Shown here piece by piece: positions 5,238-31,465 of a stretch of 37,937 nucleotides of DNA; the stretch's first letter is position 1, and each line of letters starts with the position of its first letter. This stretch comes from Endomicrobiia bacterium (GTDB lineage Bacteria > Elusimicrobiota > Endomicrobiia > DTEH01), in the NCBI GenBank assembly GCA_025060535.1, contig JANXCA010000009.1:1-37937 (forward strand), given 5' to 3'. A model generated the notes under the pieces. That model had not been told where the DNA came from. It saw only the letters and a program-made list of their open reading frames with translations, and searched no databases. Both the position numbers and the translations under genes were made by a program.

Positions 5238-7375
5238 TGAAAAATAAAAATATTTTATTTGTAGGTATAATATTCTTATCTGTTTTAATTTTTTTGTCAG
5301 AAATAATTTTTACTAACAAAACATTTTTTCAAAGAGATATAATTTTACAATTTAAACCGTGGAAAACATTTATAAATGAATGCTTTAAAAAAATAGATTA
5401 TTCTGAATATTTAGAGTCTCTTCCTATTTGGAATCCCTACAATCACTGTGGAATGCCATTTATAGCTAATATCCAAGCACAAATTTTTTATCCAATTAGC
5501 TTAGTTTTCTATATAATCAAAGATTTTACAGTTGCTTTCAAAATTTTTATAACTATTCATCTATTTCTGGCTGGATTATTTATGTTTCTGATGTTAAAAA
5601 ATAAAAATTTATCTACAATAAGTTCTTTAATAGGATGTATAATATGGAGCTTCAATGGATATATAATCTCGCGTATTGAGTTTCTTAGTGTATTTGCTTC
5701 TATAGTATGGATACCATTAATTATTTTCTTAATAGATAAGCTACCTAATAATTTTTCTCTTAAACACACAATTTTACTCTCTTTTGCAATAGCATTGCAA
5801 TTTTTAGCAGGACACACACAAATTTGGATGTATGCTTTGTTATTTTGTTTTTTTTATTCTATATTTTTATCATTTTCAAATAAAAATATTAAAATTTTTT
5901 TTATGTTTATAACAAGTAGTATATTCTCATTACTACTTTCAGCAATACAGTTTCTACCAACATTAGAATTTATATTTTTATCTACTAGGAGTGGAGGAGG
6001 AATAAAAAATTTTGGAATGAGTTTTGAAGAATCTTCTAAGTATTCTCTCAAATTATTAGATATTATAAATCTATTTTATCCCTTTAGTTGGCAAATAGAC
6101 TTTATTAAAACTTTGCCAACTAAAGAATCCCATCAAATTCTTTACTTACCTAATTATTGGATTTATACTTTTTATGTTGGAGTCACTACTTCTGTGTTAA
6201 CTTTTATAGGTTTTTTTTCAAAAAAATATTTAAAAGAGAAAATTTTTTTAAGTTGTATATTTTTATTATTTTTTTTATATGCTTTAGGAAAAAACTCTTT
6301 ATTTTTTATTTTTTTATATAAAATTTTACCAATAATAAGAATTTTTAGATATCCGGCTACTAGTTGTTATATATTAGTTTTTGTTGTATGCATATTGGCT
6401 TCTTATGGAGCTGAATTTATTTTAAAAATCCAAAAATTAAATTTAAATAAATATTTAATCTTTATACCACTACTTATTTTTTTAGAATTAAAATTATATT
6501 CAAAAAAAATAATGCTCACTTTACCTTCTAAAATTCTATATGAAAAAAAAGAAATTACCAACTTTTTATTAAACTCAAATGATATCTCCTTATATAGATT
6601 TGCATTGACACCCAAAACCCAAATTTTATCAAGAACAGTTTCTGCTGAGGATTTGTATAATGCAATAGCTACTTATAGAGATAACTTATTAGGTAACATA
6701 AATTTAGATTATTTTATATATAACTTTAGAGGACAAGATATAGAATTAAAAAACTTTTTTGAATTTTTAAACATAGTGTATTCTGAAAAATCATTGGATG
6801 AAGCATTGCCATTTTTTTCTATATCTAATGTTAAGTATATTCTATCCTCTGAAAGCCAACCTACAAAATATTGTAATTTGATTTTCAACAGAAAATATAT
6901 GAAAATATACGAAAATCCTTTTGCAAAAGAAAGAATATATTTTGTGAATGAATATCTGTCAGAAAAAGATCTAAAAAAATCAATTCAACTTATAAAGAAA
7001 ATAAAAGACAAATTAACACACTGTATAATAATTCATTCCAACGAAAAATTTAATATTGATTTTAAACCTAAAAAAATTTATTATTCTATTAAATATCTTG
7101 ACTTTAGACATAACAAAGTATCTTTAGAAATAGAAAATAATGCAGATGGTTTTTTAGTTATGTCTCAAAATTTTTATCCTGGATGGAAATGTTATATTAA
7201 TGGTCGTTCGGGAAAAATATACCATTGTAATATATATATGATGTGTGTTTATCTTAAAAAGGGATACAATCAAGTAATTTTTCAATTTGAGCCTTTAAGT
7301 TTTAAAATAGGAAGTATCTTATCTTTAGTTTCTACTTTAATTTTTTTGCTATATTTATTTGAAAAAGGAGGGTAG
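5237..7375 (+). CDS. YfhO-like multi-pass membrane protein
   Basis: A 712-residue integral membrane protein with an N-terminal helix, about ten further hydrophobic segments to residue ~410, a long soluble region, and a last helix at ~690-708. The LPIWNPYNHCGMPFIAN segment, the aromatic-rich early loops and the C-terminal FYPGWKCYINGR followed by FEPLSFKIG match the bacterial YfhO family. Those are GT-C-like proteins proposed to act on lipid-linked sugars at the outer face of the cytoplasmic membrane. In Firmicutes YfhO is implicated in teichoic or lipoteichoic acid glycosylation, but the substrate here is unknown. It starts within the tatD stop codon. It may glycosylate the polysaccharide or surface proteins made by the neighbouring directon, which is inference. 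Confidence 0.85.
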   Translation: MKNKNILFVGIIFLSVLIFLSEIIFTNKTFFQRDIILQFKPWKTFINECFKKIDYSEYLESLPIWNPYNHCGMPFIANIQAQIFYPISLVFYIIKDFTVAFKIFITIHLFLAGLFMFLMLKNKNLSTISSLIGCIIWSFNGYIISRIEFLSVFASIVWIPLIIFLIDKLPNNFSLKHTILLSFAIALQFLAGHTQIWMYALLFCFFYSIFLSFSNKNIKIFFMFITSSIFSLLLSAIQFLPTLEFIFLSTRSGGGIKNFGMSFEESSKYSLKLLDIINLFYPFSWQIDFIKTLPTKESHQILYLPNYWIYTFYVGVTTSVLTFIGFFSKKYLKEKIFLSCIFLLFFLYALGKNSLFFIFLYKILPIIRIFRYPATSCYILVFVVCILASYGAEFILKIQKLNLNKYLIFIPLLIFLELKLYSKKIMLTLPSKILYEKKEITNFLLNSNDISLYRFALTPKTQILSRTVSAEDLYNAIATYRDNLLGNINLDYFIYNFRGQDIELKNFFEFLNIVYSEKSLDEALPFFSISNVKYILSSESQPTKYCNLIFNRKYMKIYENPFAKERIYFVNEYLSEKDLKKSIQLIKKIKDKLTHCIIIHSNEKFNIDFKPKKIYYSIKYLDFRHNKVSLEIENNADGFLVMSQNFYPGWKCYINGRSGKIYHCNIYMMCVYLKKGYNQVIFQFEPLSFKIGSILSLVSTLIFLLYLFEKGG

Positions 7376-13221: not shown

Positions 13222-14586
13222 TTACGGTATCTCAAGAACACTTCCTGGAACTAGTTGACCCCTTATTATTTTATCTTTGTTTGCTTCATAAATCCTTCTC
13301 CATTCTGAAGGATTTCCATAGTACTTCTCAGCTAACTTAGGTAAAGTATCACCTTCAACTACAGTGTGATATCTTTTTTTAGGTACAGTTGGTTGTAGAG
13401 GTGAAGTAGTTGTTGGCTGTTGAGGTTTTGGTTTTTCTTCAATTTTTCTTGATTCTGCTTCTTTAAGTTTCTTTTCTAACTCTTCTAATTTCTTAAGTAA
13501 AATTTCTTCGGTAGTTGAAAGCTGTTGAGGTTGTGGAGGTTGTAGAGTTGGTGTAAGTTCTTCTTCAGTAGGCATTGGTTGCTTAGAAGTAAAAGATTTA
13601 ATTTGTTCCTCTAATTGTTGTTTTTCTAAAAGAAGTTTGTAATATTCTTTTTTAGAAATCTTTTCTTCTTCTACCTCCACTGGTAAAAATTTGTAATTTA
13701 AAGAAAAACACTGAATACCACCGGTATCAACTTTACTTAAAGGAGACCACATATAAGCATAGTTAAAGCTAATCTGGGAAGTATAAAACCCAAAACCTAA
13801 AGAAATACTACTGTAGTCATTTTTACCATATCCTATTCCAAAAGAAGGAGTAAGTTTTATTTTTTTATTAAAAAATAAAAATTTATATTCAAAAGAAAAA
13901 GCAAAAATATAGTCCATTAAAGAAGAAAATTCGATTTTTAAATTAGGAAAAACTTTTATATTTTTATATTCATATTTATATCCAAAATTCAAACACATCG
14001 GTATATTTTCTTTAGTATATAAACCTACATTTGGCTGAAATATATTTTCTATCAATATACCTAAATAATTAAATTCATTAAACATATACAACCCACCTAG
14101 CGAAGCTGAAAAATAAGAAATTTCTGAAGTTTTTGAAAAAACAGGATTTTGTTTCATATAATCGTCTAAATTATACGACTCTCTATCATATGTGAATTTT
14201 ACTCCAAGTGCAACCTTAGGGATAAGTTCTTTTAGCTGTCTTCCATAAGAAAGTATTATTTTGTTTTTTATATACCAATCTATTATACCAAATTGATTAA
14301 AACCAAAACCTACTATACCATTTAACAATTTCTGGTTAGCACCTAAGCTATTATTAACAAATTTAGTTCCGTCTGTCAAGTTAGGATAAATCAGTCCATA
14401 TGTAAAAGTAATCTCTGGTACTTTAAGATTCCATAAACCTGCAGGATTTAAAAATATACAACTTACTGAATCATCTTTTGCAACTGTGTTATTTAATCTA
14501 AAATTTTCAGCAGAAAAATTCTCAACCGGATTATAACAATATCCTAAGCTAAATAAAAAGATAAAAATTATATTTAAATATTTCAT
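13222..14586 (-). CDS. PorV/UPF0164-like outer-membrane barrel with C-terminal LysM
   Basis: A 454-residue protein with an N-terminal signal sequence (LNIIFIFLFSLGYC). The first ~300 residues are amphipathic beta strands opening with the family-like CIFLNPAGLWNL and ending YAYMWSPLSKVDTGG then FSLNYKF, as in PorV/PorQ/UPF0164 barrels. A coiled-coil stretch, a Pro/Gln-rich linker (~335-400) and a C-terminal LysM (YHTVVEGDTLPKLAEKYYG through LVPGSVLEIP) follow, which would bind peptidoglycan from the periplasm. The start codon overlaps the giant Fn3 gene stop by 4 bp (ATGA). PorV proteins in type IX secretion shuttle cargo, and the neighbour has a sortable-looking C-terminal Ig domain. The role here is inferred. 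Confidence 0.78.
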   Translation of the reverse strand: MKYLNIIFIFLFSLGYCYNPVENFSAENFRLNNTVAKDDSVSCIFLNPAGLWNLKVPEITFTYGLIYPNLTDGTKFVNNSLGANQKLLNGIVGFGFNQFGIIDWYIKNKIILSYGRQLKELIPKVALGVKFTYDRESYNLDDYMKQNPVFSKTSEISYFSASLGGLYMFNEFNYLGILIENIFQPNVGLYTKENIPMCLNFGYKYEYKNIKVFPNLKIEFSSLMDYIFAFSFEYKFLFFNKKIKLTPSFGIGYGKNDYSSISLGFGFYTSQISFNYAYMWSPLSKVDTGGIQCFSLNYKFLPVEVEEEKISKKEYYKLLLEKQQLEEQIKSFTSKQPMPTEEELTPTLQPPQPQQLSTTEEILLKKLEELEKKLKEAESRKIEEKPKPQQPTTTSPLQPTVPKKRYHTVVEGDTLPKLAEKYYGNPSEWRRIYEANKDKIIRGQLVPGSVLEIP

Positions 14587-17500
14587 TTTGCTACTATTAT
14601 TGTCCCTGTAAATGTTTTGTTACCTATTTTTATTTTATAAATATAAATTCCCTTCGGTACAACTTCTTTGTTATCATATCTTCCATCCCAAACAAGTTCT
14701 GTATCTTCCAATTTTAGTTTAGCCACATATCTTAAGTTTAAATCATAAACTTCTCCCTCTGGAGTAGATAAAGTAGGATTAAAAATCACAAAGTGGATTT
14801 TGTTATTTTTGGGAGAAAGAGGAGTAAAAATTTTCCTTGGGTAGATATTTACAATTGCAGGTTCTTCAGAAAAATGTATGACTTTTCTTATAACATATTC
14901 ACCTGTATTTTTTAATGTACATCTTAAAATATTTTTTTCTTTTTCATAATAGGTAGGAATAAGGACATATTCAACACCATTATTAAAAAACACAAGTGGT
15001 CTAAATTTATCATTATTTAAATAATCCTCCTGAAAATTATTCTTCAAAGAAATTTCTAAACTTATTGGTTGTGGTAATGTGTAAGTTATATTTTTATTAT
15101 TTTTTATAACCTCTAATTTATACCTCATAATTACATTTAACCTATCTATATCTTCTTCCTTAACAGACATTGTCGCAACTTGTATTTTATAACCTAAATC
15201 CAAAATTTCTTCATCTACAAATTTAGGAATTATCATTCTTATTTCCTCTAAAGGAATAATCCTGCTACCAGAGTTAAAAGAAGTTATCACATCAGAAGGA
15301 GCACTTTCTATATCTCCATATGTTATTGCCTTTATAAAGTAGTAGTAGGTAGTAAAATAAATATAATCTATAAACATTGTAATAGTTGAAGATACAAACT
15401 TATACACTGTATCTGTGCTCAGAAGAGTTTCATAATCCTGGCTACGATATATGTTGTAGCCCTTTATATCGTCTGCAGCTGATCCATCTGTATAGGTTTG
15501 AACTTTTTGCCAATATAAAATAAATCTGTATTGTTGTTGTTGGTAAGTTATTTTTTCTACTCTTGAAGGAATATTTATTATTCCTACAAAAAAACTTTCT
15601 TTATTAGCGTCACTACTTATTCCCTCCTCATCTATTGCAAGCACTTCATAATAATATGTTGTATTTTGTGTTAAATTTATCTGTGGTTGATAAGTAGTAG
15701 TTGAAACTTCTACATCAATTATTGATTCAGAAAAATCTTCTTTAGAAAAAACTTTCAATCTATATTTAATAATTTTAGTATTAGGCTCTTGATGAGAAGA
15801 AGGACTCCATTTAAAAACCGGTTTTCTTAAATTAGTTTCACCTTTAGGAGATAAAATTTCTACAGGATTTGGTCTAAAATAAGGCACATAAAACTGAAAA
15901 ACATTTGAATCTCTCCACAAACCTCTACTATCATAAGCAACTATTTTCCAATAATAAGTAGTATTCATCAAAAGTTTATATTCTATAGTATGTACAGATA
16001 CTGTAGAAGATATTATTGTGGTTGTAGTTATTTTAGATGGAAAATTACTTCTAGTAGATAATTTTAATTCATAATAAACTATATTATCGTCTTTATCCAC
16101 AGCTAATGACCAACAAAATTTTGGATTCCTTGTTAAAACTGTTCCTGAGGGATAATAAATCTCAAAAAATTCAGGAGGGTCATTTTGCAAGTCCACAAAA
16201 AAATAATTTATCTGTGAAGTTTTTTTGCCTATTTGGTTATAGGCTTCCACATACCAAAAGTATGTAGTGTTTTCTTTTAATGCTGAAGTAGAATAAGAAA
16301 TTACTTGAATTTCTTTATAATTTTTATATGGATCTAAAGAAAGGACAAAATAATTAGTTGTTTGTTTTTCAGCCTCACCAAGAAAGATTTTATAATTTAT
16401 TGGTTTCCACCATTCTGTTTTGTTTGCTGCAGTCCAAGTTAAATTTAAAGGTTGATGTTGAATACGAACAAATGTGAAAGTAGAACCAGGTGACAATAAA
16501 TAAAAATCGTCTGGCAAGTCATCTTGAAGATCTACTATAAATAAATAAGATGAAATACTTTTTGTATAATTCCCTTTACTGTCATATGCTTCTACCCACC
16601 AATAATATATAGCATTTTCTTTAAGCAAAGATAAATCTAAATTATAATTTAAAGTTGTACTTCCCAAAACTATAATATATGTAGAGTGCCCAACTACATA
16701 ACTATCAAAGGTAGAAATAACTATTCTATAATGATGAATATAATCTTTCGGATCGGATTCATAACTTGGTTGCCAACTTAAAAAAATATTTCTTTCTTTT
16801 ATTACACCAGATGTTATATTTACATAGAAACTTTTTGGCTCTTCTTCAATAGAATTTATCCAAAAAGAGCTAACAGTAGAACTAGAAACACCTCCATATT
16901 TATCATTCGCAACTACTTGCCAAAAATACTGAGTGTTTTCTTTAAAATCAAAAGAAACTTCTATTTCTATTGTACTATTTAACTGTTTACCTAAATTTGA
17001 AGCTATATCTTCATATTTTTCATACACAGAAAAATCTGACATACTAGAAATATATAGAGTATAAAAAACTATATCTTCATCCGGATCTCCTTTATTTTTA
17101 AATTTAAACTTTGGATTTGTTGTGTTTACAACTTCATCATTTATCGGATATTCTAATTCAAAATTTCTTGGTTCAAAATTTGTTGTTTGGAAATAAAAAG
17201 TAGAATACGGAGTTTGAAAATTGCCAAATCTATCATATGCTTTCACATACCAAAAATATGTTGTTCTTGGTTGAAGATCAAAATTTAAAACAAAACTTGT
17301 AGTTGAAGAATAAAAACTATATTGAAAAGAAAAATTAGCTCTACTACTTATCACTAACACATAACTTGAAATTATGGGGTCATAGTTGTCTGGATCATAC
17401 ACCTGTTCCCAGTAAAATGTAGGTCTGAAGGTTTTAATCCCAACTGCAAAAGGTGAATTTATAGAAACACCCGGAGATAAAAGATTAAATTTGTATGGCT

Positions 17501-20318
17501 TTTGATTTGATATTACAAAATATCCAGTTGAAAAAGCAACTCCATATGGTTTTACTAAATATGGTTGAGAAGTAGAAGGATTCAAAGAAAAATTCCACTC
17601 ATTTTCTCCCCAACAATGAATCTGCCAATAATATGTAACAGAAGGATACAGTTTAGAAAATGTAAACATTACTGTTGTAGAGGTAACTTGTGGGTTTTCT
17701 AAATATATGTTTAGTTTCCATAAAGCTAAAGTATACCACCCATCACAAGTTTGCGGTAGAAATGTAGAAATGTTTAAAAAATAATGTTTCACACTATCAA
17801 AAGGATCTGGATCCTTGGGCTTTGTCCATTCAAAATATATAGGTCCTTCAAGAGATATTGGATTTATTATACCAGTTGGTTTAACTATATTATAATCAAA
17901 AGGAGCTTGTGGTAAAAAATCAATACAGAAAGTTTTTGGTGACTGAGATAAAGAAGGTGAAAATGTTTCAGTAGAAGTCCATATCCAGTATAAATTCTGT
18001 GGAGCATCAAGTGCTCTTATTCTAAAAAAATATGTTGCGTTTTCTATAATTTTTAAATCATATCCTTCTTGGGTACCTTCTTCTATAATTTTTGTTATTG
18101 CAGTAGAAACAAAAAAATCCCATCTTTTAAACCAATCTTCATACTCAAAAGGAGGTGCATTTTGATTAGGATTTCCAACATATCTCCATGCATTGGCTTC
18201 GTTTTTTGGCTCACGCCAACTTGAGATAAAAACCGCATACTCATATACACCATCTTGAGGATCAGGATCAAAAGTAGGTTGCCAACATAAGATTATAGGT
18301 GTGGATTTAGCAATGAAAATTTTATCATTATTTATTACTTTTTCCATTAAAGGATAATATGTGGTTCCTTCTAATACTATTTTATAAAAAGTTGCACCTT
18401 TTAAAATGGTAGGTGTTCCTGTAGGAAAAAATACTTCAAAATCACAAATAGGTTCATCTTTTTGGTTAATCCAAAACCAACCCAACGGAGTCTGTGTAGA
18501 AAGTTGTGGAAAACCTAAAAAGCTGCCTGAGTCATATGTTACTACATACCAATATATCTTTTTATTTTCATAATCCAATAACTCATTAGAAGATGGCTGT
18601 GTATATGGTGTCATCAAAAAGTAAGAAGTTGTTAATAATCCTTCTTTTGGAATCTTAATATAGTTTTCAAAACTTTCTGATGTAGAAAGAAATATCTCAT
18701 AGCCTATAACATAGTCATAAGGATCCACATCATATGCATCCTTAAAATCAAAAGAAATCTGTCCTGTATTAGTATGCACTACAGTATTTATAGGAGAAAT
18801 TAAAGGATTTGTGTGGAATTTAGGAGAAGTATTTTTAAAATTTACTATAAATTTAAAAATAGCTGTTGTTGAAGAAGCACCTTCTGAATCATAAGTAGTA
18901 AGTGTCCAATAATATGTTGTGTCATCTAATAAATTCTCAACTATAACATATGTTTGAGTGGTAGATAAATTTATAACCGGATGGCCTAATATATTTGAAG
19001 TAATATAAGTTGAAATTTTTAAAGTATAAGAAGATATAAAATCTCCATAGTCACTATCATTGCTTGCATCACTTAATGAAATTCCAGCATGCCAGCCTGC
19101 TTCTGACCAGTCTATTTTTACTGTAGTTGAAGAAATTACTATTGAAGTTGTGTTCCTTACAGGATCATATACAAAGTGCTTTAGAGGTGCATAACAACTT
19201 GGCAATGAATTAAAAGGAACCACATAAGGAGAAGATGAAGAAATTAACGACCAGTTATTTCTTTCATCTTTTGTTTTTATTGAAAAATAATAAAAATTAT
19301 TATTTAACAAACCAGTTATAACTACACTTGTAGAAGCATTAGGAACAACATTAACATTTTCTATAAAAAATACTTCAGTAGCTTCTGACCAAAGTGACTC
19401 GTTATTTATTTGTTGTCTATGATATCTTATTTTATAACCGCCAGAATAACTTGATGAATTATATAAAAAACCATCTTCATAGGAATCTTCATAAGGCAAA
19501 ATCCAATTAAGTTTTATGTGTCTAAATCCTGCCGAAACCAAAATAGATGTAATCCTTCTTGGAGGAGAAATATCAGGCTGTGCTATAGTAGTTACTTTAT
19601 TTGAAATTTCTGAAATGTTTCCAAGTTCATCTTCTGCCCACATTCTTATATAATAAGTAACACCTCCATTTAAACCTGTAAGTGTATACTTTGCAGACCA
19701 GATATAGGAGGGATATCCCCAAGTAGATATTTTAACTTGTGCTGCTAAGGGTGACCAATTATTAAAATTTTCATCTTCTGTATATTGAATATAGAAATAA
19801 CCAGATAAAGCTCCTATTATAGTGCCATTTATATAATCATCACTTCCTTCAAACTCTAATTCAATTTTACCTTCATGTATTCCACCAGTCGCATCTTTAA
19901 TATTAATATATGGCTTCCATAAAGTAAACCAGCCCGTTGCTGTATTTGATAAAGATACACTTTCATCTGATGAAGAAATAAATACTACAAAATAAAAAGT
20001 TGTATATTTACTTAATGAATTATTTAAAACAAATTTATCCAAACCTGAAATTGTTACTAATTGTTGTTCTCCAGGATAAACAGGCCCTGTAGAAAGCACA
20101 ATTTGAGCTGTGGAGGTAGACCAAGATATCTCTGAGAATGTGCTATATTGAATATAATAGCGGCTTCCTTCTGGTAAAATATCAGCTCCAGGATATGTCC
20201 AGATTAATTTTATACTTCCTTCTGAAAGATCATTACTTCCTGAAATTGAAATTAAGTCAGAAATATTAAAAGAAGCAAAAAGTTGAGTTGTTAATAAGCA
20301 TAAAAGTAAAATAAACAT
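14583..20318 (-). CDS. Giant secreted Fn3-repeat protein with FlgD-like C-terminal Ig domain
   Basis: A 1911-residue exported protein. A signal peptide (MFILLLCLLTTQLFA) is followed by about fourteen ~100-residue fibronectin-III-like repeats. These recur with a Tyr/Trp-rich strand such as TTYYWKIVAYDSRG, TTYFWYVEAYNQIG and TTYFWYVKAYDRFG, and many contain a DPDP/DPDE acidic turn. Repeat 14 (YNIYRSQDYE) looks like a canonical Fn3. A ~130-residue beta domain precedes the last ~85 residues, which read like a FlgD-type Ig domain (VYDLNLRYVAKL, LVWDGRYDNKEVVPKGIYIYKIK). No enzymatic motif is visible. It is likely a cell-surface adhesin, sheath or S-layer-like fibre. It overlaps the PorV-like gene by 4 bp. 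Ser/Thr richness may allow glycosylation. Confidence 0.85.
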   Translation of the reverse strand: MFILLLCLLTTQLFASFNISDLISISGSNDLSEGSIKLIWTYPGADILPEGSRYYIQYSTFSEISWSTSTAQIVLSTGPVYPGEQQLVTISGLDKFVLNNSLSKYTTFYFVVFISSSDESVSLSNTATGWFTLWKPYINIKDATGGIHEGKIELEFEGSDDYINGTIIGALSGYFYIQYTEDENFNNWSPLAAQVKISTWGYPSYIWSAKYTLTGLNGGVTYYIRMWAEDELGNISEISNKVTTIAQPDISPPRRITSILVSAGFRHIKLNWILPYEDSYEDGFLYNSSSYSGGYKIRYHRQQINNESLWSEATEVFFIENVNVVPNASTSVVITGLLNNNFYYFSIKTKDERNNWSLISSSSPYVVPFNSLPSCYAPLKHFVYDPVRNTTSIVISSTTVKIDWSEAGWHAGISLSDASNDSDYGDFISSYTLKISTYITSNILGHPVINLSTTQTYVIVENLLDDTTYYWTLTTYDSEGASSTTAIFKFIVNFKNTSPKFHTNPLISPINTVVHTNTGQISFDFKDAYDVDPYDYVIGYEIFLSTSESFENYIKIPKEGLLTTSYFLMTPYTQPSSNELLDYENKKIYWYVVTYDSGSFLGFPQLSTQTPLGWFWINQKDEPICDFEVFFPTGTPTILKGATFYKIVLEGTTYYPLMEKVINNDKIFIAKSTPIILCWQPTFDPDPQDGVYEYAVFISSWREPKNEANAWRYVGNPNQNAPPFEYEDWFKRWDFFVSTAITKIIEEGTQEGYDLKIIENATYFFRIRALDAPQNLYWIWTSTETFSPSLSQSPKTFCIDFLPQAPFDYNIVKPTGIINPISLEGPIYFEWTKPKDPDPFDSVKHYFLNISTFLPQTCDGWYTLALWKLNIYLENPQVTSTTVMFTFSKLYPSVTYYWQIHCWGENEWNFSLNPSTSQPYLVKPYGVAFSTGYFVISNQKPYKFNLLSPGVSINSPFAVGIKTFRPTFYWEQVYDPDNYDPIISSYVLVISSRANFSFQYSFYSSTTSFVLNFDLQPRTTYFWYVKAYDRFGNFQTPYSTFYFQTTNFEPRNFELEYPINDEVVNTTNPKFKFKNKGDPDEDIVFYTLYISSMSDFSVYEKYEDIASNLGKQLNSTIEIEVSFDFKENTQYFWQVVANDKYGGVSSSTVSSFWINSIEEEPKSFYVNITSGVIKERNIFLSWQPSYESDPKDYIHHYRIVISTFDSYVVGHSTYIIVLGSTTLNYNLDLSLLKENAIYYWWVEAYDSKGNYTKSISSYLFIVDLQDDLPDDFYLLSPGSTFTFVRIQHQPLNLTWTAANKTEWWKPINYKIFLGEAEKQTTNYFVLSLDPYKNYKEIQVISYSTSALKENTTYFWYVEAYNQIGKKTSQINYFFVDLQNDPPEFFEIYYPSGTVLTRNPKFCWSLAVDKDDNIVYYELKLSTRSNFPSKITTTTIISSTVSVHTIEYKLLMNTTYYWKIVAYDSRGLWRDSNVFQFYVPYFRPNPVEILSPKGETNLRKPVFKWSPSSHQEPNTKIIKYRLKVFSKEDFSESIIDVEVSTTTYQPQINLTQNTTYYYEVLAIDEEGISSDANKESFFVGIINIPSRVEKITYQQQQYRFILYWQKVQTYTDGSAADDIKGYNIYRSQDYETLLSTDTVYKFVSSTITMFIDYIYFTTYYYFIKAITYGDIESAPSDVITSFNSGSRIIPLEEIRMIIPKFVDEEILDLGYKIQVATMSVKEEDIDRLNVIMRYKLEVIKNNKNITYTLPQPISLEISLKNNFQEDYLNNDKFRPLVFFNNGVEYVLIPTYYEKEKNILRCTLKNTGEYVIRKVIHFSEEPAIVNIYPRKIFTPLSPKNNKIHFVIFNPTLSTPEGEVYDLNLRYVAKLKLEDTELVWDGRYDNKEVVPKGIYIYKIKIGNKTFTGTIIVAK

Positions 20319-20803: not shown

Positions 20804-22180
20804 TTATTCTACAAAAATAGGATTTGTTGCTAACATATGAGGATATTCAGATTCTATCCAGATTCTATAATAAGAAAGATTTTGTGGTTTATTGTCAGAA
20901 AAAACTATTTTTTTTGGAGTAATATCTTTAGTTTCATAGATTAAATCTCCATTTTTTATTATACACACCTTTATATTTTTATTTTCGTTATTTGAGAAAT
21001 AAACATTGAATTCAAAAGTTAAAACTTCTTTATCAAATTTATACCTTCCTCCAAAAACTACAGGCTGAGAAGATATTTTTAAATCAGAAATTATAAGCTC
21101 TTTTTTATCGTCCCTCCAAACAGCATAAAAATTTCCATTTTTTAAAGAAGAAAGTATAGACTCCTTATTTTTTTGTTTAGTAAACACTATGTTTTTTCTT
21201 ATAAAAAAAGAAAAATTATTTTCAACAAAATCAATTTCAGAATAACACCATATAGGTGAGTTCCTTTTTCCTTCACAGTATTCTTTTAAAACTTCATCCC
21301 AGATACCTCCAATATTTCCAACTTTTCTGTAACCTTCCGCAAATATACTAAATCCATCATAATTAAAAGTTTTTAGTAACGATTCATAATATGGTTTAGT
21401 TTGTGTATAAATTTTAAGTTTTTTTATTGTTTTTAGTATTTTTTTATCTTCATAGTTAGTTGCTTCAGGATGTGCCCAGATAATAATAGAGTTAGTTTTT
21501 AAACTATTTATATAATTAATAAATTCTTGATAAGGTTTTTCATCAAAATTTTTATATTGATGATATTTTTTTTCTAAAAACGGAAAATTAGATAATAACA
21601 AAATTAAAGAAACTACAAACAAAAATTTTGATTTTAATAATAACGAAAAAAAAACTAATAAAATAGGCCAAAAAGATTTTAAATTAAATTTTTTAATATT
21701 TATCTCATTTCCTAAAATAGGCATCTTTAAATAATAATTTTTATTACTTAAACCCACAATTAAAAGATGTTTATGCAAGTTATTAATAACTAATGAATCT
21801 TTTTCTGTTGACCAAAAATAATGTGTAGTTAGTTCTACTGCAGGAATTACTATTACATCTTGCTGTTTTTTATTTATATAATCTATCTCATTTAGATACT
21901 TTTCAATACCTAAATTCATCACAGAAGGACCACTATATGTTTTTTTAATTATATTTCTAAATGGCCATACTCCAAATTCCACCTTCTGTAAAAAATGATC
22001 AGTTAGAATTACACAATCAATTTTATTTTGTTTTGCTATTTCTACTATTTGATTTATAGAATATTTTGAACCACTAAATTCAGAATGAATGTGAAGAATA
22101 CAATTTAACTTTATAAGATCTTCACAAAAACAAAATTTTATTAATAAACTCAAATATAAAAAGAAAAACAACTTCTTCAT
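20804..22180 (-). CDS. Membrane-associated PHP-domain hydrolase
   Basis: A 458-residue protein with an N-terminal hydrophobic export signal (LFFFLYLSLLIKFCFC) and a PHP metallo-phosphoesterase fold. Visible metal-binding residues include H30/H32 in LHIHSEFSG, D61-H62 in ILTDHF and E116 in PAVELTTH, with IIWAHPEATN further on. Between these halves, residues ~169-201 are strongly hydrophobic (WPILLVFFSLLL and FLFVVSLILLL) and look like a membrane hairpin interrupting the catalytic domain. The C-terminal ~100 residues are a beta-rich domain. If the signal is cleaved the active site faces the periplasm. The substrate is unknown; a phosphorylated glycan or lipid intermediate fits the neighbourhood. 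It overlaps the GT4 gene by 4 bp. Confidence 0.78.
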   Translation of the reverse strand: MKKLFFFLYLSLLIKFCFCEDLIKLNCILHIHSEFSGSKYSINQIVEIAKQNKIDCVILTDHFLQKVEFGVWPFRNIIKKTYSGPSVMNLGIEKYLNEIDYINKKQQDVIVIPAVELTTHYFWSTEKDSLVINNLHKHLLIVGLSNKNYYLKMPILGNEINIKKFNLKSFWPILLVFFSLLLKSKFLFVVSLILLLSNFPFLEKKYHQYKNFDEKPYQEFINYINSLKTNSIIIWAHPEATNYEDKKILKTIKKLKIYTQTKPYYESLLKTFNYDGFSIFAEGYRKVGNIGGIWDEVLKEYCEGKRNSPIWCYSEIDFVENNFSFFIRKNIVFTKQKNKESILSSLKNGNFYAVWRDDKKELIISDLKISSQPVVFGGRYKFDKEVLTFEFNVYFSNNENKNIKVCIIKNGDLIYETKDITPKKIVFSDNKPQNLSYYRIWIESEYPHMLATNPIFVE

Positions 22181-23463
22181 TTTTTAGTAGAAAAAATATT
22201 AGTATAAAGACTTTCTAATAAAAAAATCATTCTTTCTATACTAAACTGTGGATAACCATCTATTATTTTGTTTACCCAAACTTTAGCATTACTTGACATT
22301 TCAGTCCTTAATTTTACATCCATCAACAGCCTAACTACTGCTTCGGCTAATTTTTTGGAATCTTGTGGTTCAACTAAAATACCTGTATGAAGGTCTACTA
22401 CAACTGAACTAATTCCTTGAACTTTTGTAGCAATCACTGGTTTTCCTAAAAGTTGTGCTAAAACTATAGTCTTACCCATACCTTCATTCAAAGATGGCTG
22501 AACATATATATCCATTATTGAAATTAACTCAACTACATTTTCTCTCATACCAGTGAATATAACTTTAATTTTTTTATCTTTTAATGTTTTTTCAAAAATT
22601 TTTATATTATTTTTTTGTCCATAATAAAAACTTTTAGATAAACTTACAACTTTAAAATGTTGTTCTGTAAGGAGTTTTTCTAATTTTTTTCTTTCAGAAC
22701 CGTCTCCCACAATAAGAAAAGAAAAAGAAGAATTTAAAAAATTACAAATAAAAGGTATCGCTTCTATCAAATATCTTACACCTTTAACAGGCTCAAGCCG
22801 TGCTACTGTGCCTATAATCATGTTTTCTTTTATGTTAAATTCTTCTTTTAGATTATTCAATTCGTGATATGTAATCTGTAGATTATAATCAACTCCTGAG
22901 GGTATCACAACCCATTGATTAATTTTGCCGATCCCATACATAAGAGATTCATTTTTCTCACCATCAGTTAAAGCAACAATTTTGTCAGTTATTTTTGCAG
23001 TAATTTTTTCAATCACTAGAAACATAAATGTAATAAGTTTATTATAATATCCGTAAAAAATATGACCATGAGGAGTATGAATTATTTTTATATTTCGGAA
23101 TTCAAGACTAAAAGTCCGCAACAAAAATGCTGCCCATCTACCTAAAATACCGCCTTTTGAAGTATGTGTATGGACTATATCTGGTTTTTCTTTTTTTATT
23201 ATATTTAAAATTCTCAAAAAAGCAACTAAATCTTTTATAAAAGAAATTTTTCTTTGCAGTTCTTCAATATAATAAGTTTTAAAATTTAAGGTAGAAATAT
23301 TAAAATCTAAACTTTTTGTTTTACCACCATATATTAATACTATCTCATAATCATACTTTACAGGTTCTTTCTTTAATGCAAAGTATTTACAACTAATCAA
23401 GACATTTTCAGAGGAACCACCTTTATCAAGACGTGTTATGATATGAATAATTTTAAGTTTCAT
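22177..23463 (-). CDS. GT4-family glycosyltransferase
   Basis: A 428-residue retaining glycosyltransferase of the GT-B fold. The N-terminal acceptor domain opens KIIHIITRLDKGGSS with the family's glycine loop and has HTHTSKGGILGRWAA. The C-terminal donor domain carries GTVARLEPVKGVRYLI and the E-x7-E-like NEGMGKTIVLAQLLGKPVIA. It would add one sugar to the lipid-linked repeat unit on the cytoplasmic side. Donor and linkage are not predictable. It is joined to both neighbours by 4-bp ATGA overlaps. An 18-residue insertion around KIFEKTLKDKKIK in the donor domain is unusual but not disruptive. Confidence 0.92.
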   Translation of the reverse strand: MKLKIIHIITRLDKGGSSENVLISCKYFALKKEPVKYDYEIVLIYGGKTKSLDFNISTLNFKTYYIEELQRKISFIKDLVAFLRILNIIKKEKPDIVHTHTSKGGILGRWAAFLLRTFSLEFRNIKIIHTPHGHIFYGYYNKLITFMFLVIEKITAKITDKIVALTDGEKNESLMYGIGKINQWVVIPSGVDYNLQITYHELNNLKEEFNIKENMIIGTVARLEPVKGVRYLIEAIPFICNFLNSSFSFLIVGDGSERKKLEKLLTEQHFKVVSLSKSFYYGQKNNIKIFEKTLKDKKIKVIFTGMRENVVELISIMDIYVQPSLNEGMGKTIVLAQLLGKPVIATKVQGISSVVVDLHTGILVEPQDSKKLAEAVVRLLMDVKLRTEMSSNAKVWVNKIIDGYPQFSIERMIFLLESLYTNIFSTKK

Positions 23464-24545
23464 TTTTTTAATAAAATTTCAACAACTTCTGAATCAGCTA
23501 AAAATCTCATAGGAGGGCCCCAAACACCAGCACCTGATGTAACTATTAATACTGAGTTATTTTTTTTATAAATACCATAGAAATATTTATAAAAAATTCT
23601 CACAAAGATATGAAAAGGGAAAATCTGCCCTCTATGAATATGTCCTGAGATCATTATTAAATCAAAATTTTTTGATATTTCCTCAAAATAAAGTGGTTGA
23701 TGTGAGATCAAAATATTTAATTTGTTTTTAATATAATGTTTTGATAAAATTTCCATTACTTCTTGTTTTGACAAATCTTCAGTAATAATATCACCCAGTC
23801 CTATAAAATTTATATCTCCTATACACAATGAATTATTTCTTAAAATCTTATAACCTAAACTACTAAAAATTTCTGAAGCTTTATTAATTCCGAAATAATA
23901 TTCGTGATTACCAAATACCACAATAGTAGGGATTTTATAAGAATGAATTTTCCTAACCATCTCATCATTAATTTTAAAACCATATTCTAATATATCACCT
24001 ACTAATACTAAAACATCAGGTTGAGAATTTTTTATTTTTTCATACAATTTTAAAAACCATAAATTTTTATGTCTACAACTTAAATGTGTATCTGAGATAA
24101 AAATTATTTTATAGTTTTTATTTAAATTATCAAACTTAAAAGTAATTCTATTAAAATTAGGCAACTTTATTCCTTCATAAGTAGCTTTAATAATATAAAT
24201 TAAAGATACACCTAAGAATAAACAAATAATTATTCTTCTATCAATTTTTTTAAACAAAAATAAAAAAATTTCTCCTATAAAGCACCAAAAAGACATTATC
24301 AAAACTAATCCTATCCAAAAAAACCCTAAAATAAAAATATATTCTAAAACTCCACAACTAAATCTTACACGTAAAAATAAACTCAAGATAGAAACTATAA
24401 ATAAACCCAAAAAAACTTTCCTAAAATAAATTATATTTTTTCTTACAAATGGAAAATCTGAAATAAACTTAAGAATAAACAAATGAGATAAAAAGAAAAA
24501 AAACAATAAACTCAAAAAAATCAAACCAAATGCAAAATACTTCAT
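23460..24545 (-). CDS. Membrane-anchored metallophosphoesterase (YaeI-like), start corrected
   Basis: The calcineurin-like motifs are complete: SDTHLS (D152, H154), LVGDILE (D184), FGNHEYY (N213, H214), ISHQP and SGHIHRGQ, residues counted from my start. The N-terminal ~120 residues hold about four membrane helices. The ORF track begins at a GTG at 24632, which adds 29 residues and overlaps the methyltransferase by 91 bp. I prefer the ATG at 24545 (MKYFAFGLIFLSL), which makes a 361-residue protein and gives the same 4-bp ATGA overlap as neighbouring junctions. Relatives include YaeI-like and UDP-diacylglucosamine-type phosphoesterases; the substrate here is unknown but a lipid-linked phosphate is plausible. 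Confidence 0.88.
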   Translation of the reverse strand: MKYFAFGLIFLSLLFFFFLSHLFILKFISDFPFVRKNIIYFRKVFLGLFIVSILSLFLRVRFSCGVLEYIFILGFFWIGLVLIMSFWCFIGEIFLFLFKKIDRRIIICLFLGVSLIYIIKATYEGIKLPNFNRITFKFDNLNKNYKIIFISDTHLSCRHKNLWFLKLYEKIKNSQPDVLVLVGDILEYGFKINDEMVRKIHSYKIPTIVVFGNHEYYFGINKASEIFSSLGYKILRNNSLCIGDINFIGLGDIITEDLSKQEVMEILSKHYIKNKLNILISHQPLYFEEISKNFDLIMISGHIHRGQIFPFHIFVRIFYKYFYGIYKKNNSVLIVTSGAGVWGPPMRFLADSEVVEILLKK

Positions 24546-25375
24546 TTTTTTACAGAATATATAATAAATGAAGGAGATATTATAAATCCAGTAAAAAAAT
24601 ATACAATTTTTGATATTATAAAATATAAGCACTTAAAAATTGAAACAATTTCATTTAAAAATTTTAATTGTCTATATGGATCGCCTAAAGTTAAATAAAG
24701 ATACGCTTTATTATTTAAAATTCTAAATCCATTCTTTAATAAAAGCCATTTTAATGACCTAAATGTAAAACCAAAATTATGATATACAAAAGGAGATTTA
24801 ATAAACAATTTTACTATATTTATTAGTTTCTCTAAATAAATATGAAATAAAGCATTCTTTACCCTTATTATCAAAATACCATTTTCAGTTAAAATTTCAT
24901 TAATATATTTAATTGCTTTATTTATATCATTTATCTCATATAACACATCAATTAAAATAATTACATCAAAAAATTTTAAAGGAAATTTTATATGAAGAAA
25001 ATCACCTAAATAAATTTTATCTTCACCAATTAAAGTTTTTGCAGACTCTACAGACCTTTTTACTAATTCAACACCATATACATCATATCCTATATTTTGT
25101 AAATATTTTAAAAAATACCCACTTCCAAAACCTACTTCTAAGACTTTAATTTTTGTAGTTTTGTATCTTTTAATAAGAAATTTTTTTATTTTATAATAAA
25201 TACTACTTTTAGACATATCAATAATTCTTTGCATTTCAAAATATTTATCATAATATGACTCTATCTCTAAAGAAGATTTTCTTATTTTATTTTGATAAAA
25301 ACCACATTTTTTACAAATAAATAAGTTTTTATATTCTTTAATTTTATAAGAATTACAAATTATACAACTCTGCAT
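24542..25375 (-). CDS. Class I SAM-dependent methyltransferase with N-terminal zinc ribbon
   Basis: A 277-residue protein. The first ~30 residues hold two CxxC pairs (CIIC and CKKC), a small zinc ribbon common in sugar-methylating enzymes. Motif I is VLEVGFGSGYFLKYL near residue 80, followed by DVYGVELVKRSVE and the post-I FFDVIILIDVLYEI. The C-terminal ~45 residues are hydrophobic (YFIISKIVYFFTGFIISPSF), suggesting membrane association. It probably O- or C-methylates a sugar or sugar nucleotide of the glycan. It lies 4 bp after the AsnB-GT9 fusion stop and overlaps the phosphoesterase start by 4 bp. Confidence 0.87.
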   Translation of the reverse strand: MQSCIICNSYKIKEYKNLFICKKCGFYQNKIRKSSLEIESYYDKYFEMQRIIDMSKSSIYYKIKKFLIKRYKTTKIKVLEVGFGSGYFLKYLQNIGYDVYGVELVKRSVESAKTLIGEDKIYLGDFLHIKFPLKFFDVIILIDVLYEINDINKAIKYINEILTENGILIIRVKNALFHIYLEKLINIVKLFIKSPFVYHNFGFTFRSLKWLLLKNGFRILNNKAYLYLTLGDPYRQLKFLNEIVSIFKCLYFIISKIVYFFTGFIISPSFIIYSVKK

Positions 25376-25379
25376 AACT

Positions 25380-28307
25380 TTAGACCAAATTTTTCAGTAT
25401 ATTTAAAACTTCTTTTGGTGTAATTTCTTTAAGACATTTTAAGTTTTTACAGTTATACTTATAACATGGTCTTTTACATTTTATATTTTCTTTCCTTAAA
25501 ATATAAATTTTATCTTTTTCTACATAAGGAGTATATCTGACAACATCACCAGGTCCAAATATACATATCACTTTTTTATTCAAAGCAGCTGCAAGATGCA
25601 TAAGGCCAGTATCATTTGACACAATTATATCCATTTTTTCCATAAGAGCAGCTAATTTCTCAAATTTATCAGTTATGTTATTGGTTATAATTACAAAATC
25701 CAAATCTGAAAAAGTTTTATGCATCAATTTATCTTCTTCTTTACTACCAAAGATAAAAATTGAAGCATATGAATATATATTTTTAATAAGAAATGCTAAA
25801 TCTCTCCAATACTCTAATGGCCATCTCCTTGAAGGCCTAAACGCTCCTGGACAAAATCCAACTAAAATCTTAGATCCCTTTATATTGTTTCTTATAAATT
25901 CTTCACTCCATTGCTTTGCTTCGATTCTTATTGGATAAAAAATATAATCTGGTTTTCCCTTTATGCCTAAAGGTTCTAGTAACTTATAAGTAATTTCTAC
26001 CTCATTAGTTGCTGGAAAATCTTCTTCATCATAAAAGAAATTAAAAATTCTTCGTGAAAATTTTTTACCATACCCTATAAAAAAATCTGAATTTATAAAA
26101 GTTTTTATTATTAAAATTTTAAGCATACCTAATAAACTATTTACTTTTCTTAAATTTATAACAAAATCAAATTTTATATTTTTTAATCCAATTAATAACT
26201 TAATCAAACTTTTAATTTTTTTAAATTTAAACATCTTATAATGAATCGGCAAAGTAATTATTTCTGAAAAATAAGGAATTGTCTGTGCTATTTCTTGTGA
26301 ACGCGATATTGTAAGTAAAAAAAACTTAGAATTGGAATATCTATCATAAAGAGCTTTAATTATTGGCATCATCATTATTATATCTCCGAGACCACCTAAA
26401 TTTATTAATAAAATTTTCATTTCATTTTTTAATTCAATAGCTCTTTTTAAGTTCAAAGATAATAATTTCAAAAACTTTTCTCGCCACATCTCCCACACAA
26501 GAATAGTAAATAAAAGATCAGAATAGTTTTTGGTTTTATTCAGATGCTGCTTAATTATTTTTTGTAGATAATTATAATTTATTAGGCCCTCACTATTTAT
26601 AGTATGTGGATTTAAGTAATCGAACATTAATTCTTTAATCTCCTCTATCAACCACCGTCCTAAAGGAATTTGAAAACCTTGCTTTTTTTGTTTTACGATA
26701 CTTAAAGGTAAACCTTCCATTTCTAAAATCTTTCTTAAAAAATACTTTAAAGTTAATTTTTTTGTTTTACTTTTTAGTGATACCTTGCTTAAAAATTCTA
26801 CTAAACGAACATCTAAAAAAGGAACTCTTAACTCTAAAGAATTAGCCATTGAGGCACGATCTGCTAAAAACAATAAATTATCTTTAAGATATGTAGATAT
26901 ATCAAAAAAATAAATATCTTCATAAGTATTTATTGACGGAAGGAAATCCGTATCAAATTTCTTAAGTTCCTTTTCCAAAAATAACTCATCTTTGTCATTT
27001 AAATCTAAAGAAGAAACCCACAAGATGTATTTTTCTTTTAAATTCTCTGAAATATATAAAAATCTTTTTATCCAGTTGATTAAATCCCTTTTTTGATAAG
27101 TAATCTTAAAAATTTTAGAAAACTCAAAAAGACATCTTTGAAAAAATAACGGTGTATGTAAATAGATTTGTGCAAAATATGCACCAATATATCGCGGATA
27201 GCCACCAAATAACTCATCCCCTCCTATACCAGAAAGAGCAACAGTTATTTTATTTTTGGCAAACTGACTAATAAGATAAGTAGGTATTATTGAGGAATCT
27301 CCAAATGGTTCTCCTGATTTTTCTAATATATCTAATAAAACTTTCTCAATTTGCGGTGTTAAAATTTTAACATTGTGGTTAGTATTAAAAAACTCTGAAA
27401 TAATTTTGGCTTTTTTTAGTTCATTAAAAGTAATATCTTCCTCTCCGAAACCAACACTAAATGTCTCTATTTTACCAATATTAAACTTTTTCATAAATGC
27501 TACTATCGCAGAAGAATCTAATCCACCAGAAAGAAATACTCCTAAAGGGACATCTGAAACTAATTGTTCTTTTATAGAAAGATAAAACAATTCATAAATT
27601 TTTTCTATAATAAACTCTTCCTTTAAGTTTTCCTTTTGACTAGAAGTATTTAACTCCCAGTATTTGCGAATATAAAAATTGTTATTTCTCCAAACAAGTA
27701 AACTTGCAGCTGGAAGTTTTTTGATCTGTTTTATGATAGTGTATGGTTCAGGAGCGTAAAGCAAAGAAAAAAAATAAGATAAGGCATCTTTATCTATTTC
27801 AAAATTTATGCCAGGTACCAAATATAGTGCTGATATTTCAGAGCTAAAAAATATAGTTTTATCTTTAATAATATAATGTAACGGTTTTATTCCAAAATGA
27901 TCCCTAACTAAGACAAGCGTCTTAGTCTTTTTATCCCATAATGCAATCGCAAACATCCCACGAAGATATTTTACAAAATCAAGACCATAATCTTCATACA
28001 AATGAACTATGACTTCTACATCAGACTTACTTTTAAATATATGTCCTTTTGACTCAAGAGTGTTTCTTAGTTCTCTAAAATTATATATCTCTCCGTTACA
28101 TACAACTACCACATTACCATCTTCACTCATAATAGGTTGACTTCCTGTTAAAAGATCAATAATTTTAAGTCTTCTAATACCTAAAGATACTAAACTATCT
28201 TCAGTATAAATTCCTTCCTCATCAGGTCCACGATGTATTAATTTGTCTAACATTTTTCTAAGGAGTTCTTCATCTTTATAATTTACAAAACCACATATAC
28301 CACACAT
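25380..28307 (-). CDS. Asparagine synthase (AsnB) fused to GT9 heptosyltransferase-like domain
   Basis: A 975-residue open frame of two complete enzymes. Residues 1-629 are a class-II glutamine-hydrolysing asparagine synthetase: catalytic Cys2 in MCGICGF, NGEIYNFREL, RGPDEEG and the ATP-pyrophosphatase loop SGGLDSS at 260-266. AsnB homologues are common in exopolysaccharide clusters, where they may amidate sugar carboxyls. Residues 630-975 are a GT9 glycosyltransferase: LLINLGGLGDIIMMMPII, FCPGAFRPSRRWP and SNDTGLMHLAAALNKKVI. There is almost no linker: Met630 (ATG at 26420) looks like the natural GT9 start. The junction lies on an A6 run where a one-base shift would create a stop, so the fusion may be genuine, recoded, or an assembly error (see findings). 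Confidence 0.85.
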   Translation of the reverse strand: MCGICGFVNYKDEELLRKMLDKLIHRGPDEEGIYTEDSLVSLGIRRLKIIDLLTGSQPIMSEDGNVVVVCNGEIYNFRELRNTLESKGHIFKSKSDVEVIVHLYEDYGLDFVKYLRGMFAIALWDKKTKTLVLVRDHFGIKPLHYIIKDKTIFFSSEISALYLVPGINFEIDKDALSYFFSLLYAPEPYTIIKQIKKLPAASLLVWRNNNFYIRKYWELNTSSQKENLKEEFIIEKIYELFYLSIKEQLVSDVPLGVFLSGGLDSSAIVAFMKKFNIGKIETFSVGFGEEDITFNELKKAKIISEFFNTNHNVKILTPQIEKVLLDILEKSGEPFGDSSIIPTYLISQFAKNKITVALSGIGGDELFGGYPRYIGAYFAQIYLHTPLFFQRCLFEFSKIFKITYQKRDLINWIKRFLYISENLKEKYILWVSSLDLNDKDELFLEKELKKFDTDFLPSINTYEDIYFFDISTYLKDNLLFLADRASMANSLELRVPFLDVRLVEFLSKVSLKSKTKKLTLKYFLRKILEMEGLPLSIVKQKKQGFQIPLGRWLIEEIKELMFDYLNPHTINSEGLINYNYLQKIIKQHLNKTKNYSDLLFTILVWEMWREKFLKLLSLNLKRAIELKNEMKILLINLGGLGDIIMMMPIIKALYDRYSNSKFFLLTISRSQEIAQTIPYFSEIITLPIHYKMFKFKKIKSLIKLLIGLKNIKFDFVINLRKVNSLLGMLKILIIKTFINSDFFIGYGKKFSRRIFNFFYDEEDFPATNEVEITYKLLEPLGIKGKPDYIFYPIRIEAKQWSEEFIRNNIKGSKILVGFCPGAFRPSRRWPLEYWRDLAFLIKNIYSYASIFIFGSKEEDKLMHKTFSDLDFVIITNNITDKFEKLAALMEKMDIIVSNDTGLMHLAAALNKKVICIFGPGDVVRYTPYVEKDKIYILRKENIKCKRPCYKYNCKNLKCLKEITPKEVLNILKNLV
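26418..26431 (-). other. Candidate slippery site at the AsnB/GT9 junction
   Basis: In the coding frame the sequence reads A-AAA-AAT, a -1 slippery-type heptamer inside a run of six A. In the -1 frame the next codon is TGA. One base later comes the ATG that would start the GT9 enzyme alone. No obvious stable stimulatory hairpin was seen. It may equally be a one-base homopolymer error. Confidence 0.4.
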
Positions 28308-28313
28308 TTTTAA

Positions 28314-29414
28314 TTACCTCTCATTAATTACTAAATTAAATATTTCAATATATTTCTTACCAATTTCCTCTAAATTAAACTTTTTAACTTGTCTAAAACC
28401 TAACTCTACTAACTCCTTTCGTAACTTCTCTGACAATAAAACTTTTAATATAGACTCTTTAATTTCATTTATATCATATGGATTAAAATATAAAGCCGCA
28501 TCTTGAAGTATCTCCAAAGTAGTTGAGATATTAGAAGCTACTACAGGACAACCACATGCCATTGCCTCTAATGGTGGCAGTCCAAAACCTTCATATAAAG
28601 ATGGAAAAACAAAAACCTCTGCTCCACTATATAAAGAAACTAATTCATCGTCAGGTAAAAACTCAATTATATTTAACCAAGAAGGTAAAACTTTAAAAGT
28701 AGAGATTAAATCTTTTCTTTTTACTCCAACAAGTAAAAGATAATAGTTATTTCTGATGCTGTCAGGTAATAACTTATATGCTTCAATTAAACGATAAAGG
28801 TTTTTATGTGGTTTTGAATTCCCTACATATAACAAATACTTTGAATTAATATTATATCTTTTTTTCACTTCCTCAACTTTTTTATATGGTTGAGGATAAA
28901 ATTTCTTATCTACGGATAAATAAATAACCTCAATTTTATCTTGGGGGATACTTAAAATATTTATTAAGTCAACTTTAACTGTATTTGAACAAGTGATTAT
29001 TTTTTTTACTTTTTGCGCAGTTAATTTAATGAAATTTTTTATATAGAGTTGGTATTTAAGGTTATTCTTATATGGAGGTAATATAAGATACATTATGTCA
29101 AAAATATTGGTGATAACTGGGACAGATAAAAACACAGGAAATTTATAATAAGGTGAAAAGAATAAATCTATATTATATTGTCTTACTCTTTTTAATAATT
29201 CTAACTGATCCCAAACAAAAGTTATTTTTTCGGGTATATAAATTTTATATAGGTTAGGATATTCTAAATTAACTTCACAATATTGATTTAAGAACACATA
29301 AAAATCCCAATTTGGTTTTTCTTTCGCTATATAAGATAAAAAATTATAAAGAAATCTTTTAATACCTGTAACTTTATTTTTAACAAATTCTCTTCCATCT
29401 ATACCTATTTTCAT
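28314..29414 (-). CDS. GT4-family glycosyltransferase (mannosyltransferase-like)
   Basis: A 366-residue GT-B enzyme. The N-terminal half opens IGIDGREFVKNKVTGIKR and ends near VKKIITCSNTVKVDL. The donor half has LLYVGNSKPHKNLYRLIEAY and the E-x7-E site in YEGFGLPPLEAMACGCPVVAS. This arrangement is typical of mannosyl- or rhamnosyltransferases in O-antigen and capsule loci. It begins 2 bp after the gmd stop, which would fit a donor derived from GDP-mannose, though that is inference. It is 6 bp upstream of asnB. It is clearly related to the 33656-34834 protein. Confidence 0.92.
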   Translation of the reverse strand: MKIGIDGREFVKNKVTGIKRFLYNFLSYIAKEKPNWDFYVFLNQYCEVNLEYPNLYKIYIPEKITFVWDQLELLKRVRQYNIDLFFSPYYKFPVFLSVPVITNIFDIMYLILPPYKNNLKYQLYIKNFIKLTAQKVKKIITCSNTVKVDLINILSIPQDKIEVIYLSVDKKFYPQPYKKVEEVKKRYNINSKYLLYVGNSKPHKNLYRLIEAYKLLPDSIRNNYYLLLVGVKRKDLISTFKVLPSWLNIIEFLPDDELVSLYSGAEVFVFPSLYEGFGLPPLEAMACGCPVVASNISTTLEILQDAALYFNPYDINEIKESILKVLLSEKLRKELVELGFRQVKKFNLEEIGKKYIEIFNLVINER

Positions 29415-30412: not shown

Positions 30413-31465
30413 TTATTCTTTTTGAGATAATTCTTTATATATTTGAAGTATATGATCAACATAGTTTTCTATAGAAAATTTTTTTGCTTTTTCTTGTGCA
30501 TTTTTTGAAATTTTCTCGTACAACTTTTTATCTGTCAAAAGTAATTCCATTGAATTTTTTAACTCCTCAATACATGGTTTTACAAGAATACCATCTACAA
30601 AATTTATAATCAACTCTTTTGGCCCTCCAAAATCTGTAGCAATCACTACTTTTCCACAAGCCATTGCTTCTATTATAGTTCTTCCAAATGGTTCCGGTTC
30701 AGTAGATGGATTTAAAATTATATCACACATATTCATAAGTTGAGGAATATCTTTTCTAAAACCTAAAAAAATAATGTTATCATAAGAAGAAAAATTTTTA
30801 GTAAAATTTATTATTTCTTCTTTATAAGGGCCATCTCCTACAATAATAAGCTTTACATTTTTTAATTTTTTACATAATCTATCAAAAGCCTCAATGGCAA
30901 TTTTATGCCCTTTCCACCAATCAAGTCTTGAAAATATTCCTATTATTTTATCTTTTGAAGATACATTAAGTTCTTTATAAAGATAATCAATAGGTAACCC
31001 TGGCTTAAACTCTTTTATATCAACAGGATTATAAATTTTGATAACTTTTTTTTGAAAATTTTTAAATTTATATCTTATAACATCTGAAGTTACTATTATT
31101 TTATCTGAAAACATAGCTATGAGCGAGTCCTTTAAAAAACTTTTTTCAATTACTCTATTGTGCCATACAAAATTTATTTTAAGCATTTTCGCTATAAATC
31201 CGGCTAAAAAAGTATATTTTGTTGTAGCAGAATTACAATGAATAATGTCAGGATGTAATTTTTTTATTTCAAAATATAAATTAAAAATTGGTACAATTCT
31301 AACTTTTATATTTTCTTCTTTTAGTTGTTCTAAAAATCTACAATAATATGGCATAAAAACTTCAAAATCAATTTTTGTCTTTAAATTTTTAAGTAAAACA
31401 AATAAACTTATCTGCCCCCCACCTGGTGGATCAATTGGTTGATCTATGTATAAGACTTTTAACAT
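30413..31465 (-). CDS. GT4-family glycosyltransferase
   Basis: A 350-residue GT-B retaining glycosyltransferase. The N-terminal domain opens VLYIDQPIDPPGGGQISL and contains IIHCNSATTKYTFLAGF. The donor domain has GIFSRLDWWKGHKIAIEAF, LIIVGDGPYKEEI and the nucleotide-sugar site EPFGRTIIEAMACGKVVIA. It is part of the glycan assembly block. It starts 2 bp after the GT2 gene stop and ends 18 bp before gmd, whose own strong Shine-Dalgarno lies in that gap. Donor and acceptor are unknown. Confidence 0.92.
   Translation of the reverse strand: MLKVLYIDQPIDPPGGGQISLFVLLKNLKTKIDFEVFMPYYCRFLEQLKEENIKVRIVPIFNLYFEIKKLHPDIIHCNSATTKYTFLAGFIAKMLKINFVWHNRVIEKSFLKDSLIAMFSDKIIVTSDVIRYKFKNFQKKVIKIYNPVDIKEFKPGLPIDYLYKELNVSSKDKIIGIFSRLDWWKGHKIAIEAFDRLCKKLKNVKLIIVGDGPYKEEIINFTKNFSSYDNIIFLGFRKDIPQLMNMCDIILNPSTEPEPFGRTIIEAMACGKVVIATDFGGPKELIINFVDGILVKPCIEELKNSMELLLTDKKLYEKISKNAQEKAKKFSIENYVDHILQIYKELSQKE

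Follow-up and report, generated by a model that had tools for sequence, protein, structure and literature searches.

Recurrent fusion of an asparagine synthetase-type amidotransferase with a glycosyltransferase in polysaccharide gene clusters of Elusimicrobiota

An important question raised by this locus is whether one long open reading frame (ORF), in which an asparagine synthetase-type (AsnB) part is followed by a GT9 glycosyltransferase, encodes a single protein with two functions, gives separate products through slippage, or represents two genes joined by a wrong base. The ORF lies in the window, i.e., the whole stretch of 37,937 nucleotides that was analysed, and where its two parts meet the coding sequence runs ATT GAA TTA AAA AAT GAA ATG AAA ATT, so that a slip into the −1 frame or an additional A gives TGA-A-ATG. 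The original prediction had described a single ORF with this A6/TGA/ATG junction, and our re-reading of the positions and sequence agreed with it exactly. It had also described two complete enzymes joined with no linker; the first part stands, with an AsnB-type enzyme of about 612 residues and a GT9 enzyme occupying the last 346, whereas the second part has to be corrected, because the conserved AsnB core, soon after which unfused relatives terminate, ends near residue 612 and the first strand of GT9 begins from residue 630, leaving a linker of about 17 residues. The features of the locus are collected in Table 1.

Table 1. Features of the fusion gene, its joint and its conserved neighbours (window coordinates).
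Feature	Position	Strand	Description	Evidence
AsnB-GT9 fusion gene	25380..28307	(-)	975 aa, single open frame; counterpart in G002 at L038:3596-6586	
Amidotransferase (asparagine synthase-type) domain	26472..28307	(-)	residues 1-612	
Linker	26421..26471	(-)	residues 613-629; the A6 run is at 26425-26430	
TGA in the −1 frame	26422-26424			
ATG of GT9	26418-26420			
GT9 (heptosyltransferase-type) domain	25383..26420	(-)	residues 630-975	
Peptide around the joint			AIELKNEMKILLINLGG	
GT4 (PGGGQ type)	30413..31465	(-)	conserved upstream neighbour	synteny
GT4 (IDGRE type)	28314..29414	(-)	immediately upstream of the fusion; conserved neighbour	Pfam, synteny
Methyltransferase	24542..25375	(-)	immediately downstream of the fusion; conserved neighbour	Pfam Methyltransf_23/11, synteny
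GT4 (TRLDKGG type)	22177..23463	(-)	conserved in cluster	Pfam, synteny
PHP-domain protein	20804..22180	(-)	conserved in cluster	PF02811 28.1 bits, synteny, triple fusion in G322

The two domains and their gene cluster

Pfam assigns GATase_7/Asn_synthase to residues 45-609 (PF13537, 151.8 bits; PF00733, 257.6 bits; both above the cut-off) and Glyco_transf_9 to residues 706-946. With the N-terminal Cys glutaminase and the ATP-binding synthetase domain, and with the motifs MCGI at the N-terminus, SGGLDS and GIGGDELFGGY, the first part belongs to the AsnB-type glutamine-dependent amidotransferases. Its glutaminase and synthetase domains are homologous to those of asparagine synthetase B (PDB 1ct9) and a hydroxyamidotransferase (7ylz), which differ in carrying no fused glycosyltransferase (chain lengths of 553 and 623). 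Among NCBIfam models the top match is TIGR03108 (eps_aminotran_1) with 481.1 bits, a score that does not reach the curated cut-off of 816.9. The two-domain AsnB architecture, this top model and the location in a polysaccharide cluster are all shared with WbpS and WbqG (PMC7468200), while the low score and the C-terminal glycosyltransferase set the protein of the window apart; the AsnB domain can be placed near WbpS/eps_aminotran_1 by its sequence, and the missed cut-off leaves membership unestablished.

The C-terminal part is a GT9 enzyme (PF01075, 95.2 bits against a gathering score of 22) with the motifs GGLGD, PSRRWP and NDTGLMH and a cysteine-rich C-terminal motif (CxxxPCYxxxCxxxxCL); conservation of the motifs is seen in alignments A2 and A3. 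Its match to GT9 heptosyltransferases such as WaaF/RfaF (PDB 1psw, 3tov) is full-length and includes the motifs, and the NCBIfam heptosyltransferase models begin at residue 631 of the fusion; it differs from them in its position behind an amidotransferase and in scoring below every equivalog cut-off for LPS heptosyltransferases (108.5 against 134.6 bits for TIGR02195, 80.8 against 185.3 for TIGR02193 and 76.4 against 170.2 for TIGR02201). Four C-terminal cysteines in a CxxxPCYxxxxCxxxxCL-like arrangement are conserved in the GT9s of the fusions and of Omnitrophota and could be a metal site. AlphaFold with a shallow alignment of 16 sequences modelled the AsnB part poorly (mean pLDDT of 59.8) and the GT9 part fairly confidently (block means mostly 60-91), and gave a helical, uncertain linker.

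The cluster of GT4 (PGGGQ), GT4 (IDGRE), AsnB with or without its glycosyltransferase, methyltransferase, GT4 (TRLDKGG) and PHP genes recurs in Elusimicrobiota and Omnitrophota, partially or completely depending on the genome. In the genome G322, a single ORF of 1474 residues (L105:5037-9461) combines AsnB with a GT4 of the TRLDKGG type and with a protein resembling the PHP protein of the window, parts that are separate but close neighbours in the window. Two other genes of this region can be mentioned: a metallophosphoesterase ORF (23460-24632), which as listed begins at a GTG and shares 91 bases with the methyltransferase gene, so that its true start is probably further in, and a gene for a 1911-aa protein with fibronectin type III/Rha78A-type Ig repeats (14583-20318), which adjoins the polysaccharide cluster.

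The AsnB part might be thought an ordinary asparagine synthetase fused by happenstance, since it passes the asparagine synthase model TIGR01536 with 447.8 bits against a cut-off of 267.1. We regard this as rather unlikely, because eps_aminotran_1 is the best-scoring NCBIfam model, because the gene is located in polysaccharide clusters in two phyla, and because the genome of the window has a second AsnB-like fragment (G000:C212, L052:5533-5991), situated at a contig end.

The joint in related genomes

We searched 340 Elusimicrobiota genomes and then read the loci as stop-to-stop ORFs, on which all fusion calls are based, since open frames reported by the search for G008:C33 and G005:C13 span in-frame stops. 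Single-ORF fusions were found in 34 cases, 20 of the AsnB-GT9 type, including that of the window, and 14 of the AsnB-GT4 type; at least two of them (L086 and L094) are truncated where their contigs stop. In 28 of the 34 the linker measures 17 residues, whether the fused partner is GT9 or GT4. When the window protein was used as a query in a scan of genome contigs, no matches were obtained; a scan with GT9 gave five fused loci among the 80 listed, all from the Elusimicrobiota search set, and no AsnB ORF was present near the remaining 75. In Omnitrophota, two of 384 sampled genomes have an AsnB-GT9 ORF, with 989 residues and a linker of 37 residues, and other genomes have AsnB and GT9 as neighbouring separate genes; the Omnitrophota form may represent an independent fusion.

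An informative relative is G002, a genome of the same genus, which encodes the same fusion in one ORF of 986 residues with 65% identity over 974 residues. At its joint, which reads ATA ACT TCC AAA TTA AAA GTT, there is neither an A-run nor a nearby stop in the −1 frame, and the GT9 part has no start codon of its own. Over 131 nt spanning this joint, the DNA of G002 and that of the window align gap-free, so that nothing suggests a missing or extra base in the window. The linker has a pooled pN/pS of 0.27, compared with 0.14 and 0.12 in the flanking 40 codons (eight close pairs of relatives), indicating that it is translated and constrained by purifying selection. On the evidence of these sequence comparisons, the fusion genuinely exists, is conserved and is kept in frame by selection, and of the three readings that had been proposed, the genuine bifunctional enzyme is the one that stands. 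The previous slight lean towards an error or a recent fusion does not hold, because a fusion common to two species at 65% identity and widespread in the phylum is not recent.

It is conceivable that the whole fusion is translated and that some free GT9 is additionally initiated from the ATG at 26418, because this in-frame ATG stands at residue 1 of the GT part, where it may be a relic of an old start codon and where no other fusion has one. We consider this improbable: the ATG is not conserved in G002 and is preceded by no Shine-Dalgarno-like pairing (−0.9 kcal/mol), although the strength of such pairing does not discriminate here, several genes of the window being without one.

Still less probable is a slip at A AAA AAT, either as a programmed −1 frameshift or during transcription, that yields AsnB alone and a re-initiated GT9, even though the motif, the −1 TGA and the ATG are all present in the window and A-runs slip in AT-rich genomes. 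We rejected this switch on the basis of the relatives, the motif statistics and RNA folding. The original prediction had held that relatives with the fusion and without any A-run would mean no slippage, and G002 is such a relative; A6 or longer near the joint is found in only four of the 34 fusions, the slippery site being absent in nearly all of them, and the start codon at GT residue 1 is confined to the window. The window has a GC content of 27%, its coding sequence of about 35 kb contains 152 A-runs of at least six, and slippery motifs are no commoner in it than the background: an immediate −1 stop follows 33 of the 282 in-frame X XXY YYZ heptamers in the coding sequence (11.7%), compared with 11.4% of all codon positions, and A AAA AAT with an immediate −1 stop occurs at six more sites in other genes. 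No stimulatory RNA structure was detected, the RNA 3' of the A-run being less structured than shuffled sequences (z +1.98, pseudoknot-free folding). The A6 run is an incidental, chance feature of an AT-rich genome and has no role. A single-base assembly error, with seven A and two genes in the true sequence, is least credible of all and was rejected on the gap-free alignment with G002 and the linker length common to most fusions, although homopolymer errors happen, the genome is a draft of 88% completeness and separate genes do exist at related loci.

Formation of the fusions

Unfused arrangements at related loci illustrate how the bifunctional gene arose. In G199 and G208, AsnB and GT9 overlap by ATGA and GTGA, respectively; in G204, AsnB and GT4 are overlapping, and in G003 they are two bases apart. 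The fusions arose when adjacent, often overlapping genes of the conserved cluster were joined. In trees, the fused GT9s cluster with the unfused GT9s that adjoin AsnB in G199 and G208, away from other sampled GT9s (support of 96), with the GT9 of G008 more distant from the fused-GT9 group, and the fused and adjacent unfused GT4s compose one clade (support of 100). In an AsnB tree built by a quick and hence approximate method, a minimum of three changes is needed for the fused/unfused label, and of five for the GT9/GT4 label. In G008 and G251, a free GT4 comes after AsnB-GT9 and belongs to the same family as the GT4 fused in G005 and other genomes. From such an AsnB-GT9-GT4 gene order both AsnB-GT9 and, after probable loss of the GT9 module, AsnB-GT4 may have been produced. 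The unfused AsnB of G208 (L087, minus, about 4085-5771 in reverse-complement coordinates) is interrupted within a conserved stretch by an in-frame TAA (...SQR*MGFHVPL), past which homology continues, and this gene is either a pseudogene or affected by a sequence error.

Proposed function of the fusion protein

Because the AsnB part scores below the TIGR03108 cut-off, we propose a WbpS-like mode of action for it and do not identify it as WbpS. WbpS and WbqG have been linked to conversion of a uronic acid to a uronamide, and deletion of wbpS in P. gingivalis leads to loss of the uronamide (PMC7468200). In a wbpS mutant of H. pullorum the uronic acid persists and glycan extension stops (PMC6025236), implying that later enzymes are sensitive to the amide. 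The AsnB part therefore most likely amidates a uronic-acid sugar, a substrate proposed by analogy. Outside the window, the same genome encodes a UDP-sugar dehydrogenase of the kind that makes uronates, and no gene for uronic-acid biosynthesis was recognised within the window.

We consider it very probable, as far as sequence can tell, that the locus encodes a single chain carrying two active enzymes. Most likely the first amidates a sugar of the uronic-acid type, and the glycosyltransferase fused to it transfers this sugar or acts next. Using ammonia from glutamine together with ATP, the AsnB-type domain would convert the carboxyl of the sugar to an amide; the GT9 domain of the same chain would then transfer the amidated sugar or add the next sugar to it, both steps belonging to assembly of a surface polysaccharide. 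The repeated joining of an amidotransferase to the adjoining glycosyltransferase is Rosetta-stone evidence for consecutive steps, and such joining would tie amidation to glycosyl transfer, the coupling being presumed.

As judged from the predicted proteins, a WbpS-like (eps_aminotran_1) amidotransferase has been joined recurrently to the downstream glycosyltransferase of a polysaccharide cluster, and we found no description of an AsnB-glycosyltransferase fusion in the openly accessible papers that were searched. A wider view, which we put forward only tentatively as the less likely side of the matter, is that these proteins may compose an undescribed amidotransferase-glycosyltransferase family, formed repeatedly and with interchangeable modules (GT9, GT4 and, in one genome, GT4-PHP), which would link amidation to transfer and thereby restrict entry into the surface glycan to the amidated sugar. 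What was suspected to be a sequencing error has turned out to be a fusion in many genomes of at least two phyla, and it provides a concrete functional proposal for GT9 and GT4 enzymes of unknown specificity, mostly in uncultured bacteria.
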